Of a stretch of 64,000 bases of DNA, positions 11,315 to 17,832 are shown in pieces (the stretch's first letter is position 1; each line of letters opens with the position of its first letter). Under the pieces are notes generated by a model. That model was not told where the DNA came from. It worked only from the letters and a program-made list of their open reading frames with translations, and did not search any database. Position numbers and translations under genes: made by a program. The DNA comes from Brevibacterium oceani (GTDB lineage Bacteria; Actinomycetota; Actinomycetes; Actinomycetales; Brevibacteriaceae), in the NCBI RefSeq assembly GCF_013623835.1, contig NZ_JABKDE010000003.1, forward strand, positions 1 through 64,000, read 5' to 3'.

Positions 11315-12829
11315 ATGACCCAGGTTCTGGCCCCGGAGCACCACGCTCCGACGCCTGCCGTCGGCCGCAGCAACGACCGCCTCTGGCACCTGGCCTTCGG
11401 GGCCCTGCTGGCGATCACCCTCATCGCCTTCACCCTGTGGTCGTTCGACTTCGTCGGCCGGGACGCACCGCGCATGGTGCTCATCACGACCGTGATCTTC
11501 GGTGCCTTCATGGCCTTCAACATCGGCGGCAACGATGTCGCCAACGCCTTCGGAACATCGGTGGGCGCGGGAACTCTGACGATGAAGCAGGCACTGCTCG
11601 TGGCAGCCGTGTTCGAGGTCAGCGGCGCCCTGCTCGCCGGCGGAGATGTCACCGACACGGTCAAGAGCGGAATCGTCGACCTCGGCGCGGTCGCCCTCGA
11701 CCCGATGGACTTCGTGTTCATCATGATGGCCGCCCTCCTCGGCGCCTCGGTGTGGCTGCTCCTGGCGACCCGGATGGGCTGGCCGGTGTCGACGACGCAC
11801 GCGATCATCGGCGGCATCATCGGCGCCTCCCTGACGATCGGCTTCGTCACCGGCACCGGCAGCTTGGCCATGGTGCAGTGGTCCGAGGTCGGGCAGATCG
11901 CGGTCTCGTGGGTGCTCTCCCCGGCCCTCGGCGGACTCGCCGCGTTCGTCATCTACGGACTGATCAAGAAGTACGTTCTCGGCAGCTCGCTCTCCCACAC
12001 GCTCAAGCCGCATATGCTCGCCCCGGTCACCGCTGCGGACGATTCCGTCGATGCCCGACTCGACGAGGTGACCGACAGCTCGGACTCGGCTGCAGCCACC
12101 GGTTCCGGCCTCATCGGAACGCACGCGGCGCTGCAGCGCTGGGTTCCGCTCATCGCCGCCTTCGGTGCGGTGATCATCACCGCGATGCTGCTGTTCAAGG
12201 GCCTGAAGAACCTCGACATGAGCGTGTCCACCGTCGGCGGCGTCATCATCATGACGATGATCGGCGTGGCCGTGTGGCTGGCGGTCTTCGTCTTCGCCAA
12301 GACCCTGCGCCGACAGACCGTCCCCCGCGCCACCTTCGTCCTCTTCTCCTGGATGCAGGTGTTCACCGCCTCCGCGTTCGCCTTCAGCCACGGTTCGAAC
12401 GACATCGCGAACGCCGTCGGACCCTTCGCCGCCGTTCTCGACGTGCTCCGCACCGACAGCATCCACGCCGAGGCGACCGTGCCGTTCGCGGCAATGCTCA
12501 CCTGCGGGATCGCCCTGGTCGTCGGGCTGTGGTTCATCGGCCGCAAGGTCATCGCCACCGTCGGCACCAAACTCACCGAGATCCACCCGGCCTCCGGCTT
12601 CGCTGCGGAGCTCGCAGCGGCCGGAGTCGTCATGGGCGCCTCGGTGAGTGGACTGCCCGTGTCCTCGACGCACATCCTCATCGGCGCGATCATCGGCGTC
12701 GGCCTGGTCAACAGGTCGGCGAACTGGAAGCTCATGAAGCCGATCGCGTTGGCATGGATCATCACCCTTCCGGCCGCCGCGGCCATCGGTTCGATCGGCG
12801 TCATCACCTTACGCACCATGATGGGATGA
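11315..12829 (+). CDS. PiT-family inorganic phosphate transporter
   Basis: This is a 504-residue member of the PiT family (phosphate with H+ or Na+ or as a metal-phosphate). The two inverted family signatures are present: [20 protein letters not shown] near residue 70 and [20 protein letters not shown] near residue 355. Both halves repeat [16 protein letters not shown] and [16 protein letters not shown], the duplicated pore motif. About ten membrane helices surround a central hydrophilic loop (about residues 235-265). ATG at 11315 follows AAGGAGAAC. PHO-box-like repeats upstream suggest induction or repression by phosphate supply. It forms a single-gene unit closed by a strong terminator. Confidence 0.93.
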
Positions 12830-13352: not shown

Positions 13353-14474
13353 ATGCGAACCCATGCACGTTCGACTCAATCACGTTCGACTTCTTCACGT
13401 TCCGCACACGGAGGCCGGCACGAACTCGGCCAGAACTTCCTGCGTTCACGCACCATCATCAACACGATTGCGAGCCTGGCTCGCTCCACCTCGGGGCCGA
13501 TCATGGAGATCGGGCCCGGCGACGGAGCAGTCACGGCCGAGCTCTACCGGCTCGGACGCCCGCTCACTCTCGTCGAACTCGACGAAACGAGGCTTGATCA
13601 CCTTGAAGACACATTCCCGCGGGCAGAGGTCCGGCACGACGACATCCTGACCACCCGGCTCGACCGGCCGGTCATCGTCGGCAATCTGCCGTTCCACCTC
13701 ACCACTCCCATCCTCCGCAGGCTCCTGCGTGCAGAGCGGTGGCAGCAGGCCATCCTGCTCACCCAATGGGAGGTGGCCCGCAAACGTGCCGGAGTCGGCG
13801 GTTCGACCATGATGACCGCGCAGTGGTCACCCTGGTTCGACTTCCGCCTCTCACGACGCGTCCCCGCCGACGCGTTCACCCCGAAACCCAGCGTCGATGG
13901 CGGAATCCTTGCCATCGACCGCTGTTCCACCGGCCGGATCCCGTTAAAGGACCGCGCCGACTATCACCGATTCGTCCATTCGGTCTTCACCAGCCGTGGG
14001 CGAGGAATGAAAGGAATCCTGACGAAGATGAGCATCACCGATCAGCGCAGCCTGCAATCGACCATGGACCGCAACGACGTCAGAGGAGACACCTTGCCCA
14101 AAGACCTCACCCCCGAGCAGTGGGCCGGACTCTACACCGAGCTGAGCACCGGTTCGGACCGTGCACACACCGCTCATCAGCCGAAATCTGCACAACAGAA
14201 GAAGAATTCACAGAAGGGAAACACCAGGCGAAACAACAAAGGATCAAAGACGAGCCCCATCGCCGAGGCGGCTGCTGAGAAGCCGGTGATCACCGGAGAG
14301 ATGCCCATCATCGGTGCCGAACAGGCCACCGAGAAGCTCCAAGCATCCATCCCAGGCGCAGAAGCGAGGGGGAAGAGTCACGACAAGGGACATCTGCAGG
14401 CCGAACGCGGATTCATGAATCAGCATCAGAAGCCGCAGAAGCCCCAGCCGAGGTGGAACCTGCCGCGGCGGTGA
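13353..14474 (+). CDS. erm: Erm-family 23S rRNA (adenine-N6) dimethyltransferase
   Basis: This 373-residue protein has the KsgA/Erm fold. HELGQNFLRSRTI (residues 23-35) and MEIGPGDGAVT (51-61) form the S-adenosylmethionine site, and NLPFHLTTPI (111-120) is the catalytic N-I/L-P-F/Y motif. Dimethylation of A2058 of 23S rRNA gives macrolide-lincosamide-streptogramin B resistance. The length exceeds the usual 240-290 residues because of a basic, Gln/Lys/Asn/Pro-rich tail from about residue 255 (QQKKNSQKGNTRRNNKGSK); some actinomycete Erm proteins also carry extensions. ATG at 13353 has a modest CTGGAG ribosome binding site. A leader peptide upstream suggests antibiotic-inducible expression. It carries no mobile-element genes beside it, so it may be an intrinsic chromosomal erm. 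Confidence 0.88.
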   Translation: MRTHARSTQSRSTSSRSAHGGRHELGQNFLRSRTIINTIASLARSTSGPIMEIGPGDGAVTAELYRLGRPLTLVELDETRLDHLEDTFPRAEVRHDDILTTRLDRPVIVGNLPFHLTTPILRRLLRAERWQQAILLTQWEVARKRAGVGGSTMMTAQWSPWFDFRLSRRVPADAFTPKPSVDGGILAIDRCSTGRIPLKDRADYHRFVHSVFTSRGRGMKGILTKMSITDQRSLQSTMDRNDVRGDTLPKDLTPEQWAGLYTELSTGSDRAHTAHQPKSAQQKKNSQKGNTRRNNKGSKTSPIAEAAAEKPVITGEMPIIGAEQATEKLQASIPGAEARGKSHDKGHLQAERGFMNQHQKPQKPQPRWNLPRR

Positions 14475-15343: not shown

Positions 15344-16447
15344 ATGCTCAACCCTGCCCGCATCACTCTTGCGCGGGAACTGCGCGGCCTGACCAAGGCC
15401 GCCTTCGCCGCCGCACTCGGGGTCAGCTCGCGTACTGTGCGGACCTTCGAGTCCGACGGAGCTCCGACATCACGGTCGGCGGACATGGCCGGGGTTCTCG
15501 ATGTCAGTGAAACGTTCTTCAGCCTTCCCGACGCCACGGAAGTCTCCCTGCAGGACGGCTTCTTTCGCTCACTGCGGTCAGCGACGGCATCGCAGCGTGC
15601 CTCGGCCCGCGCCTCTGCGTCCATCGGCACGGACCTCTATCGGTTCATCACTGACAGGTTTCAGCTGCCCCACCTCAACCTCCCCGAGGAGGCTCTCTCA
15701 TCTCCGGAGCAGGCCGCTCGCAGCCTGCGGGCGGCATGGGGACGCGGCGCCGAACCCTTACCGAACCTCATCCAGCTCTCGGAAGCCCATGGGGTGCGAG
15801 TCATGTCGCTGCCGGTGAAGTCTCAGACAGTCGATGCCTTCAGCTTCGTCCGCGATCAGCAAGCCTATGTTTTCTTATCGACGGAGAAGACTGCGGAACG
15901 ATCCCGCTTCGATCTCGCACATGAGCTCGGACATCTGGTGATGCATACGCACCAACCACTGACAGATGACGCGGACTCGGCGCCGAACCGGGAACTCGAG
16001 CGTGAGGCCGACAGGTTCGCTGCCGAATTCCTTATGCCCGAAGAGGCAGTGCTTCCCCGCAGCAGCAGGGAGCCTGCAGTTCCGGAGATCCTTAAGCTCA
16101 AGGGGCATTTCCATGTGTCGGCGATGGCGATGACGAAGAGACTCCACACCGTGGGACGTGCCACGGATTGGACGTACCGAAAGAACTGCTCCGAGCTCAC
16201 CAAACGCGGGTTCAAGGCCGACGAGCCCGAGGGCATGCCGCGTGAGCGCTCACGAGTCTTCGATGTCGTATTTCCCGCACTGCGCAACAAGGGCAATCTC
16301 GAAGAACTGCTGTCAAATGAACTGGGCATATCGCTCCCTTTGGTGCATGAACTGTCCTTCGCCCAGGTGCCGATCTCTTTGTCCGGGGGGCGGGAAACAG
16401 TCACCTCTGACCGTCCGAAGCTGACGGTCGTCAAGGGATCCGCCTGA
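15344..16447 (+). CDS. Xre-family HTH domain fused to an ImmA/IrrE metallopeptidase
   Basis: This is a 367-residue protein. Residues 5-60 form an Xre-type helix-turn-helix (RITLARELRGLTKAAFAAAL, VSSRTVRTFESD). From about residue 140 there is a COG2856 ImmA/IrrE domain with the zinc motif HELGH (193-197) in RFDLAHELGHLVMH and the downstream Glu-rich LEREADRFAAEFLMP that supplies the third ligand. Relatives cleave or antagonise a repressor, as in phage/ICE control or DNA-damage response, or act as antitoxins. ATG at 15344 starts at the HTH; the longer frame upstream overlaps the neighbour and is rejected. No repressor target gene lies adjacent, so the partner is probably the unknown upstream protein. 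Confidence 0.85.
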   Translation: MLNPARITLARELRGLTKAAFAAALGVSSRTVRTFESDGAPTSRSADMAGVLDVSETFFSLPDATEVSLQDGFFRSLRSATASQRASARASASIGTDLYRFITDRFQLPHLNLPEEALSSPEQAARSLRAAWGRGAEPLPNLIQLSEAHGVRVMSLPVKSQTVDAFSFVRDQQAYVFLSTEKTAERSRFDLAHELGHLVMHTHQPLTDDADSAPNRELEREADRFAAEFLMPEEAVLPRSSREPAVPEILKLKGHFHVSAMAMTKRLHTVGRATDWTYRKNCSELTKRGFKADEPEGMPRERSRVFDVVFPALRNKGNLEELLSNELGISLPLVHELSFAQVPISLSGGRETVTSDRPKLTVVKGSA

Positions 16448-16493
16448 AGTCTGCAGTCTTCGGTGTCAGACCATCCGTGTCACCGCCCCCCGC

Positions 16494-16499
16494 TACACT
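16494..16499 (+). promoter_or_regulatory. -10 hexamer upstream of the SAM-IV-like riboswitch
   Basis: TACACT lies about 7 nt before the start of the aptamer P1 stem at 16507, the spacing expected if transcription begins at the riboswitch itself. No clear -35 is seen. Confidence 0.45.
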
Positions 16500-16506
16500 G
16501 AGAGCA

Positions 16507-16655
16507 CGTTCACGAGTCGTGGCCATCGGTACCTGGCCGGCCACGCGGCAACCCGTCATCGACCGGGTGCCCCAGGGGAAGAACGGGTCCGGACAGCCAG
16601 TCCGGACAAGCTTCGATCCGGGTCTGCGCCGAACGGCGCTCCCGGGAAGGACGGT
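16507..16655 (+). ncRNA. SAM-IV-like riboswitch (SAM clan aptamer and expression platform)
   Basis: The element can be folded by hand. P1 is CGTTC (16507-16511) with GAACG (16581-16585). P2 is GTGGCC (16519-16524) with GGCCAC (16539-16544). P3 is ACCCG...CGGGT within the core GCGGCAACCC...GGGTGCCCC. The GAGT after P1 and the GGCAACC/GGTGCC core are the signature of the SAM-I/SAM-IV clan. A post-P1 hairpin TCCGGAC-AGCCA-GTCCGGA (16588-16606) is at the place of the SAM-IV-specific stem. The platform contains a GCGCC-GAAC-GGCGC hairpin enclosed by CCGGG/CCCGG, ending next to the GGAAGGA ribosome binding site at about 16645, so translation control is plausible. The fold was done by eye; no covariance model was run. 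Confidence 0.75.
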
Positions 16656-16660
16656 CCATC

Positions 16661-17167
16661 ATGACTGCAGACTTCAATGAACATTCCTCGTCCGACAGCG
16701 ACGATGAGTCCAACAGCAGCCGCGAACCCGGATTCCGCTGGCCGGGATTTGAGAAAGACGAGGCGCTGCACTGGTCGCGTGTTCTCCTGCGTCACTCCCC
16801 CGACCCGCAGCGTGCCGGCATCAAGGCGCAGATGTCCTCAGCCATCGCGCGCGGTGTCGCCGTCGCCGGACCCGGCTGGGTGAGCACCGCCGATGCCGCC
16901 CGCAGCGACGGCTTCACACCTGTGCTCTACCAAGCTCTGTTCGAGGCGCTGGGCACCATCCCACCCGGCTCGTTCCGGTCCCACCCGGGGCATCGGAAGG
17001 TGACGTTCAAGACCTATCTGCCCGGCATCCCCTATGAGTCCGAGCTCTGGAGCGACTGGCCGCGTCTCTTCCTCGACGAAGGGTTCGATGCCCATGCGGC
17101 CACGGGTCTCACGCTTTTGCGGGCCGAGCCGAAATTTCCCGTGACCCGAGGTCAGGAAGGGTCTTAA
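16661..17167 (+). CDS. Uncharacterised protein under SAM riboswitch control
   Basis: This 168-residue protein is of no family I recognise. Residues 1-25 are Ser/Asp/Glu-rich and disordered. The rest is a compact soluble domain with FEKDEALHWSRVLLRHSPD, GWVSTADAARSDGFTPVLYQALFEALG and GIPYESELWSDWPRLFLDEGF. There is no signal peptide or membrane helix. ATG at 16661 with GGAAGGA is clear. Position behind a SAM-IV-like riboswitch predicts repression when S-adenosylmethionine is plentiful, hence a role in methionine/SAM supply or sulfur metabolism. The stop codon overlaps the 3' end of the convergent mntR by four bases. Confidence 0.75.
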   Translation: MTADFNEHSSSDSDDESNSSREPGFRWPGFEKDEALHWSRVLLRHSPDPQRAGIKAQMSSAIARGVAVAGPGWVSTADAARSDGFTPVLYQALFEALGTIPPGSFRSHPGHRKVTFKTYLPGIPYESELWSDWPRLFLDEGFDAHAATGLTLLRAEPKFPVTRGQEGS

Positions 17168-17832
17168 GGCGCACTCAGATACACCGCCGAGGCGGCTTCC
17201 GGGTCGATTGAGACAGACGTCTCTGCATCGATGACCACGGACAGGTCCTCTCCCTCCACGGTCACCTCGATGACCTCGACGGAGGCCCCCGGTCGCACCC
17301 CCGCCTCGGCGAGCTGTCCGAGAACCGCGGGATCCGCATCGGAGACCCGCAGCACGACGTAGCGACCGGGGGCAGCCTCGGCGAGCAGGGTGGGCGTGTG
17401 GGAATCCACGCGCCCATCCGGCCCCGGAATCGGATCCCCGTGCGGGTCCGCGGTCGGGTGCCCGAGGAACACGTCGATACGGTCGATGAGCCGATCCGAG
17501 GCGGCATGTTCGAGGATCTCGGCCTCGTCGTGGACCTCGTCCCACCCATAGCCGAGCGACTCGACGAGGAACGTCTCGAGCAGCCGATGCCGTCTCACCA
17601 TCGACAGGGCGATCGTCTTACCTTGGGCGGTGAGCACCGGCGGACGGTAGGGCACCCGCGTGATGAGGCCGAGCTCGTCGAGACGCTTGAGCACCTCGGT
17701 GACGTTGGCCTTCGTCGTGCCGAACCGGTTCGCGAGCTCCGTGGCCGTCATCGGATCCCCGCCCCATTCCTGGGCCGACCAGATCGCCTTGAGATAGTCC
17801 TGGCTGACCTCGGACACTTCGCCTGCACGCAT
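17164..17832 (-). CDS. mntR: MntR-type DtxR-family manganese-responsive repressor
   Basis: This 222-residue DtxR-family regulator has an N-terminal winged HTH (MTATELANRFGTTKANVTEVLKRL), a dimerisation/metal domain and a C-terminal FeoA/SH3-like domain (VLGQLAEAGVRPGASVEVIEV). Aligning metal ligands to DtxR gives His82, Glu86, His101, Glu108 and His109. Position DtxR-Cys102 is Glu105 here and DtxR-Met10 is Asp12. Asp and Glu at these two places are the determinants of Mn(II) selectivity in MntR, so manganese rather than iron is predicted. The ATG at 17832 lies 6 nt after a GATACT -10, suggesting a leaderless mRNA. The likely target is mntH, 7 kb away, which has an operator over its promoter. 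The symbol is assigned on these residues. Confidence 0.82.
   Translation of the reverse strand: MRAGEVSEVSQDYLKAIWSAQEWGGDPMTATELANRFGTTKANVTEVLKRLDELGLITRVPYRPPVLTAQGKTIALSMVRRHRLLETFLVESLGYGWDEVHDEAEILEHAASDRLIDRIDVFLGHPTADPHGDPIPGPDGRVDSHTPTLLAEAAPGRYVVLRVSDADPAVLGQLAEAGVRPGASVEVIEVTVEGEDLSVVIDAETSVSIDPEAASAVYLSAP

Follow-up and report, generated by a model that had tools for sequence, protein, structure and literature searches.

A SAM-IV riboswitch coupled to an orphan gene family in Brevibacterium and a second actinobacterial family

A SAM-IV leader and the orphan gene behind it

The DNA analysed here (the window) is a stretch of 64,000 nucleotides of Brevibacterium oceani, positions 1 to 64,000 of contig NZ_JABKDE010000003.1, read on the forward strand. 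It carries a SAM-IV riboswitch aptamer which ends 42 nt upstream of a 168-codon orphan gene. This gene shares its last four bases with the 3′ end of a convergent MntR/DtxR-type gene on the opposite strand and is therefore probably monocistronic. The elements of the leader and of the gene are as follows.

16494-16499, + strand: -10-like box TACACT, about 8 nt before the aptamer (read by eye)
16508-16618, + strand: SAM-IV riboswitch aptamer (RF00634, full length; covariation over 51 homologs)
16508-16511/16581-16584, + strand: P1 stem
16514-16517, + strand: core motif GAGT
16532-16536/16572-16576, + strand: pseudoknot PK-1, CCUGG/CCAGG, between the P2b loop and the strand 3′ of P3
16547-16553, + strand: core motif GGCAACC
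16558-16562/16613-16617, + strand: pseudoknot PK-2, AUCGA (P3 loop)/UCGAU (permutation test)
16566-16571, + strand: core motif GGTGCC
16587-16607, + strand: P5 hairpin, 3′ of P1 (strands 16587-16594/16600-16607; RF00634 alignment)
16618-16645, + strand: hairpin between aptamer and ribosome-binding site (outer pairing 16618-16622/16641-16645, inner 16626-16630/16635-16639), with no U-run after it
16647-16651, + strand: Shine-Dalgarno-like AAGGA
16661-17167, + strand: orphan gene of 168 codons, SAM-IV-coupled family (ORF; dN/dS 0.29)

Several genes lie upstream on the same strand. A PiT-family permease (11315-12829, +), which most of the main-clade loci compared also have on the upstream side of the orphan gene, scores 89 bits with the model of the sulfate permease CysP and 79 bits with PitA, both below cut-off, and a sulfate role would fit. 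An Erm-type 23S rRNA methyltransferase (13353-14474, +; NF000499, 240.7 bits, cut-off 212), a SAM user with relatives in many of the Brevibacterium loci compared, is likely a macrolide-resistance determinant. Between it and the riboswitch is a gene for an HTH protein with an ImmA/IrrE-type peptidase domain (PF06114; 15323-16447, +), which has no relative in the other loci compared and is therefore probably a recent insertion.

In a cmscan search of the whole window, the SAM-IV element was the sole RNA to reach its Rfam gathering threshold (RF00634, 85.2 bits against a curated threshold of 38 bits, E = 8.4e-14), and it spans positions 1-116 of the 116-position model; the score given at this place is that of SAM-IV only, the search output omitting weaker clan matches that overlap it. 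It is also the only SAM-IV detected in this 4.48 Mb genome. Covariation was assessed in an alignment of 51 aptamers from homologous loci (49 distinct), over the 24 pairs of P1, P2a, P2b, P3 and PK-1. Standard pairs make up 99.0% of cells across these pairs, changes on both sides occur in 10 of the 24, a level attained by 2 of 500 shuffles, and the covariation score was reached by none of 500 shuffles; one of the five measures, the number of further pair types, showed no excess (20 observed vs 21.4 shuffled). PK-1 is paired in 98.4% of cells over the 49 distinct aptamers and has one pair with changes on both sides. Because the alignment is shifted in the P3 loop, PK-2 was assessed apart from the other helices: among 34 distinct leaders its true partners had a mean of 16.3 vs 14.1 for permuted ones, with 0 of 1000 permutations as high, and in 5 of these leaders it consists of only four pairs. 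The core positions do not vary over the 51 aptamers. The window aptamer is an ordinary SAM-IV with both pseudoknots of the class, and judging by this architecture its ligand would be SAM. The original prediction had assigned the element to the SAM-IV class and proposed an Infernal/Rfam check, which was run and bears the assignment out. The core motifs and post-P1 hairpin that it named were all located, the hairpin being P5, and its P1-P3 stems are backed by the covariation in P1, P2a, P2b and P3; the start that it gave, 16507, is one base too early.

The open reading frame downstream evolves under purifying selection. Across 18 related genomes its third codon positions are the most divergent, and the median dN/dS is 0.29 (139 of 153 pairs, 0<dS<2). 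It had been described as encoding a 168-residue protein of no recognised family, and indeed no Pfam or NCBIfam family fits: the window protein matches nothing in Pfam at E<=1, and its only NCBIfam match is of 9.9 bits (E = 0.26). When 17-21 family members were scanned singly, Pfam and NCBIfam returned only isolated E-values of 0.06-0.08. PHROGs and PADLOC gave nothing at E<=0.01 among 17 members, and the PDB sequences no convincing match for the family. A resemblance to ankyrin/DARPin proteins (E down to 1.5e-4) was discarded, with no single stretch passing and the signal vanishing with a wider alignment; a designed TIM barrel, at 1.1e-4 with that wider alignment, again had no single stretch passing. 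What looks new is thus an orphan family under SAM-IV control that is absent from the libraries searched, the riboswitch itself being ordinary.

Conservation of the coupling

Seven named homologs of the orphan protein all belong to Brevibacterium. In a set of 37 genomes of the genus (G000-G036), 30 SAM-IV sites were found in 27 genomes, and the orphan protein was detected in 28, in 26 of them intact. Every intact homolog (26/26) lies behind a SAM-IV at a gap of 30-43 nt, G004 having an alternative start at 7 nt as well. G027 and G008 retain only a frameshifted or cut gene, and in neither was a SAM-IV found at E<=1, a joint decay of gene and loss of riboswitch that counts for the coupling. One genome (G029) has a SAM-IV without the orphan gene. 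Neither gene nor riboswitch is present in 8/37 genomes, so the pair is dispensable. Distant members of the genus share 20-30% identity with the window protein. Main-clade loci have parts of their neighbourhood in common (PiT-type permease, Erm-type methyltransferase, MntR-type regulator, BCCT transporter), and the coupling is kept in other neighbourhoods too (G030/G002, G016, G014, G004/G025/G009 and, outside the genus, G257).

When 296 genomes sampled from the class were searched with a profile of 21 proteins, the one homolog from beyond the genus was that of G257, and a SAM-IV adjoins it. A sample of 396 genomes drawn from the phylum gave a match in the window's own genome and in no other, and no homolog was found in plasmids (queried with one divergent relative, from G016) or in phages (queried with the window protein). 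The actinobacterial family to which G257 belongs (f19, 199 genomes; hereafter the second family) was then searched with a protein profile that includes G257 and is blind to RNA. Matches occurred in 25/199 genomes, and a SAM-IV lies upstream of the match in 23 of these 25 (19/20 and 3/5 loci by Rfam scan, plus G257; the scans took one locus per match and left out L109-L111, which are second modules in ORFs already counted). First in-frame starts fall 3-128 nt past the aptamer, mostly 26-43 nt. G499 holds a true family member without SAM-IV, the profile match in G488 is a false hit within a 690-codon frame resembling a P-type ATPase (by eye), and G438 has a second copy, near a group II intron, without SAM-IV. 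That the riboswitch sits before the uncharacterised gene, as first read from the window, therefore holds across both groups of genomes. The aptamer, the coding gene and their conserved coupling are established by these computations.

Seen from the riboswitch, the second family has 41 SAM-IV sites in 40/199 genomes, and 28 of the 41 precede the orphan family. To the 23 found by profile are added G425, G488, G479, G393 and G491, which were spotted by eye and then recognised by an HMM of alignment A5 at E-values of 1.3e-31 to 1.4e-4 (in a set of 233 sequences, with G491 the weakest and 0/200 shuffled matches). Of the remaining sites, three lie before genes of a second orphan family and four before those of a third, and one each leads a metK gene, an NtaA/DmoA-type monooxygenase and a metabolite-symporter-like gene; the three in G382, G453 and G468 have no assigned target. 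The second orphan family (L130, L131 and L133, in G535, G525 and G408) comprises proteins of about 240-270 aa with FPGW and W.VEW motifs, encoded directly behind SAM-IV. The third (L137, L146, L147 and L148, in G437, G497, G523 and G411), found mostly in small genomes, comprises proteins of about 130-140 aa with a PGH..H motif, also behind SAM-IV. For each of the two, the two members scanned gave no Pfam match over cut-off. Neither is a divergent relative of the window family (0.1% and 0.0%, respectively, in profile comparison), and by this comparison the three SAM-IV-led orphan families are mutually unrelated.

Expression platform and sign of the switch

A TAnnnT hexamer was seen by eye at the -10-like position in 26/26 loci of the genus, and in the window the TACACT box would place the transcription start at the aptamer. 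No promoter was found in 16300-17300 with a sigma-70 consensus, and this start is therefore a putative one. The sequence GTGTCA occurs at 16477-16482, 11 nt before the -10-like box, with TGTCA there in 15/18 main-clade loci (by eye); it is too near for a usual -35 element and is perhaps a regulator site or belongs to another sigma factor. No terminator-like site follows the window aptamer, which argues against transcription termination as the mode of control, and control is probably translational.

Leader pairings were compared in 24 second-family leaders (G527, G390, G393 and G491 of the 28 being left out) and in 18 main-clade and 8 divergent Brevibacterium leaders. A SAM-OFF design, in which one strand has two alternative partners, the arm beside PK-2 and the Shine-Dalgarno sequence, was scored where it surpassed at least 95% of 300 shuffles. 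It was found in 13/24 second-family leaders, 1/18 main-clade leaders and 0/8 divergent ones. Some of the second-family leaders with this design allow PK-2 to be extended to 8-11 pairs, in a few into the arm. SAM binding in such leaders would hold the arm beside PK-2, and the strand thereby freed would cover the ribosome-binding site.

The Brevibacterium leaders raise the possibility, which we regard as real but doubtful, that the sign is reversed in this genus: without SAM the strand around PK-2 would pair with the Shine-Dalgarno sequence, and SAM, by forming PK-2, would free it and turn expression on. All 18 main-clade leaders allow the PK-2 strand, with its flank, to base-pair with the Shine-Dalgarno region (as CUUC/GAAG, AUUCG/CGAGU, UCUCG/CGAGG or AUUCG/CGGGU), though each of these pairings is equalled by 10-39% of shuffles; in the window, CUUC at 16611-16614 can pair with GAAG at 16646-16649, as good a pairing being found in 31% of shuffles and so not significant alone. 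Folding was also carried out with the aptamer tail barred from pairing, in a model without aptamer or ligand energy in which changes of at least 0.05 were counted and the barred stretch extends beyond PK-2 into its flank. Under these terms Shine-Dalgarno accessibility rose in 17/18 main-clade leaders (from 0.28 to 0.59 in the window), and rose in 2, fell in 1 and was unchanged in 5 of the 8 divergent ones; in the second family it fell in 8/24, rose in 4 and was unchanged in 12. For the window and its close relatives the predicted folding thus leans towards SAM-ON, as does the lack of the OFF design in 17/18 main-clade leaders. Against this stands the OFF design in 13/24 of the second-family leaders, whose aptamers are related and whose gene is the same. 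SAM-IV is, moreover, generally regarded as an OFF switch, the usual sign of the class. If SAM-ON were true, the protein could curb SAM synthesis or consume excess SAM. A gene that is led by two designs could also reveal how a riboswitch comes to switch its sign.

Orphan proteins and SAM metabolism

The reading that we hold to be probable is that a standard SAM-IV controls translation of the orphan gene according to cellular SAM, and that the product has a role in SAM/methionine homeostasis, that of a binding or regulatory protein being the most likely. The leader and the gene would be transcribed from their own promoter, and the leader, sensing cellular SAM, would set translation of the orphan gene, whose product may be an adaptor or inhibitor rather than an enzyme. 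In the widest alignment (17 diverse members) only M1, W38, P47 and G84 are invariant, without a polar residue among them, and this counts against an enzyme. The family retains tryptophans and a GF[TS]P-type motif; two modules occur within one ORF in three second-family genomes, and the homologs of G030 and G002 have a long charged C-terminal extension. The structure prediction proposed at the outset was run with AlphaFold2, but the models are too poor for use (mean pLDDT 39.4 with 8 close sequences, 36.2 for the protein core without alignment). These are small, fast-evolving and probably helical proteins, and the product looks like a binding module.

The homeostatic role is one that we infer from the riboswitch and from what other SAM-IVs precede, here and in neighbouring families. 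Ten genes led by such riboswitches, four of them metY/metB-type genes of the genus, were scanned with NCBIfam, further targets being judged by eye. Over cut-off were metY (L002), cystathionine gamma-synthase (L023), metK (L145) and NtaA/DmoA (L114); best but under cut-off were metY-like (L015, L150, L151), SufS-like (L004), MetQ/NlpA-like (L010) and symporter (L149) models. Within the genus, SAM-IV sites other than those of the orphan gene precede metY-like genes in G016, G030 and G031 (the last at 37.5 bits, just below cut-off, at a contig end) and cystathionine gamma-synthase in G029. In G430 a SAM-IV stands directly before metK, the SAM synthetase gene itself (L145 802-1980, - strand; TIGR01034, 519 bits, cut-off 309), and another before the NtaA/DmoA-type FMN monooxygenase. 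With a riboswitch class common to metY-, metB- and metK-type genes of the genus or the second family, the orphan gene may well be regulated together with the methionine pathway.

Searches of Pfam, NCBIfam, PHROGs, PADLOC and PDB sequences gave the protein itself no convincing kinship with known methionine/SAM enzymes, transporters or regulators. Across the 37 genomes of the genus its presence follows neither metH, for which the cobalamin-dependent methionine synthase domain PF02965 had no match in 37/37, nor metE, whose C-terminal domain matched below 1e-100 in 13/26 genomes with the intact gene and 3/11 without (16/37 in total; rows counted by eye). Nor did five divergent loci, with two neighbouring genes examined at each, show a consistent methionine or sulfur gene. 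In this NCBIfam scan dihydroxy-acid dehydratase (G016) and a cytosine-5 DNA methyltransferase (G257) were over cut-off; five neighbours were under it (resembling a TetR-type regulator, an aldehyde reductase, a polysaccharide deacetylase, an amino-acid transporter and a deaminated-glutathione amidase), and three had no match. The transporter was rejected as a clue, its L-methionine/branched-chain model reaching only 41.2 bits against a cut-off of 284. The methyltransferase gene of G257 (L080 6189-7163, - strand; TIGR00675, 201 bits, cut-off 101), another SAM user, lies shortly upstream of the SAM-IV-led homolog.

The suggestion in the original prediction of a new component of SAM or sulfur metabolism consequently stands in part: the riboswitch and the other SAM-IV targets speak for it, but it finds no backing in an enzyme signature, a fold, a consistent sulfur neighbour or a metE/metH link. 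The recurrent pairing of SAM-IV and orphan gene in related bacteria nevertheless makes the family likely to be a new part of methionine/SAM management. Counted against the homeostatic reading, besides these points, are the near absence of the OFF design from Brevibacterium leaders, the fall in accessibility in no more than a third of second-family leaders on barring the tail, the G499 homolog without SAM-IV and the genomes lacking both gene and riboswitch.

A protein outside SAM metabolism that answers SAM shortage, for example as a guard against SAM-depleting phage enzymes or in another conflict role, is improbable. Fast divergence, patchy presence, the decay in G008 and G027, the unrelated orphan families under the same riboswitch and the methyltransferase adjoining the G257 relative would suit it, yet 17 members gave no match at E<=0.01 in PADLOC or PHROGs, no homolog was found in phages or plasmids with the one query used for each, and the neighbours seen, that methyltransferase excepted, are not defence genes. 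It is very improbable that the aptamer has changed its ligand, to SAH or another SAM relative; the governed gene is unusual and specificity is not readable from sequence, but the core is invariant, and in three of these genomes (G016, G030, G031) a SAM-IV also stands before a metY-like gene. That the ORF is spurious, or that the riboswitch acts on something else beside which it lies by coincidence, can hardly be credited: the missing homolog family and the overlap with the convergent MntR-like gene are outweighed by the selection on codons and by couplings kept in different neighbourhoods.

Speculatively, and with small probability, SAM-IV in Brevibacterium and the second family could run dedicated small orphan proteins as SAM-status effectors (the window family in both, two further unrelated families in the second): brakes or adaptors acting on enzymes that make or use SAM, or protection against phage enzymes that deplete it, with a switch that may be SAM-ON in Brevibacterium. 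If true, this would be a protein-based layer of SAM control so far overlooked. Few sequence features tie an unknown gene to a specific metabolite as a riboswitch does, and an orphan family tied to SAM in two bacterial families has a role that is directly testable. The targets suggest that SAM-IV regulons reach past the methionine enzymes usually named. Among the papers accessible to a literature search, none joined a SAM-IV riboswitch with Brevibacterium, or a riboswitch and S-adenosylmethionine with Microbacteriaceae.

The SAM-IV architecture has two pseudoknots, PK-1 and PK-2 (PMC6890682), and the window aptamer resembles it (RF00634, clan CL00012) in core, P1, P2a/P2b, P3, P5, PK-1 and PK-2. 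SAM-I and SAM-I/IV have a core related to that of SAM-IV (PMC6890682) and possess a P4 helix which SAM-IV lacks; the window aptamer aligns with SAM-IV over its whole length. It differs from the usual case in its target, which is not a methionine biosynthesis gene, the aptamer itself being no different. In Mycobacterium avium, the SAM-IV of the MAV_4315 leader precedes an O-acetylhomoserine sulfhydrylase, a known methionine enzyme (PMC3774663); the riboswitch class is common to both leaders and the metabolite monitored presumably the same, whereas in the window the gene governed encodes an orphan protein.
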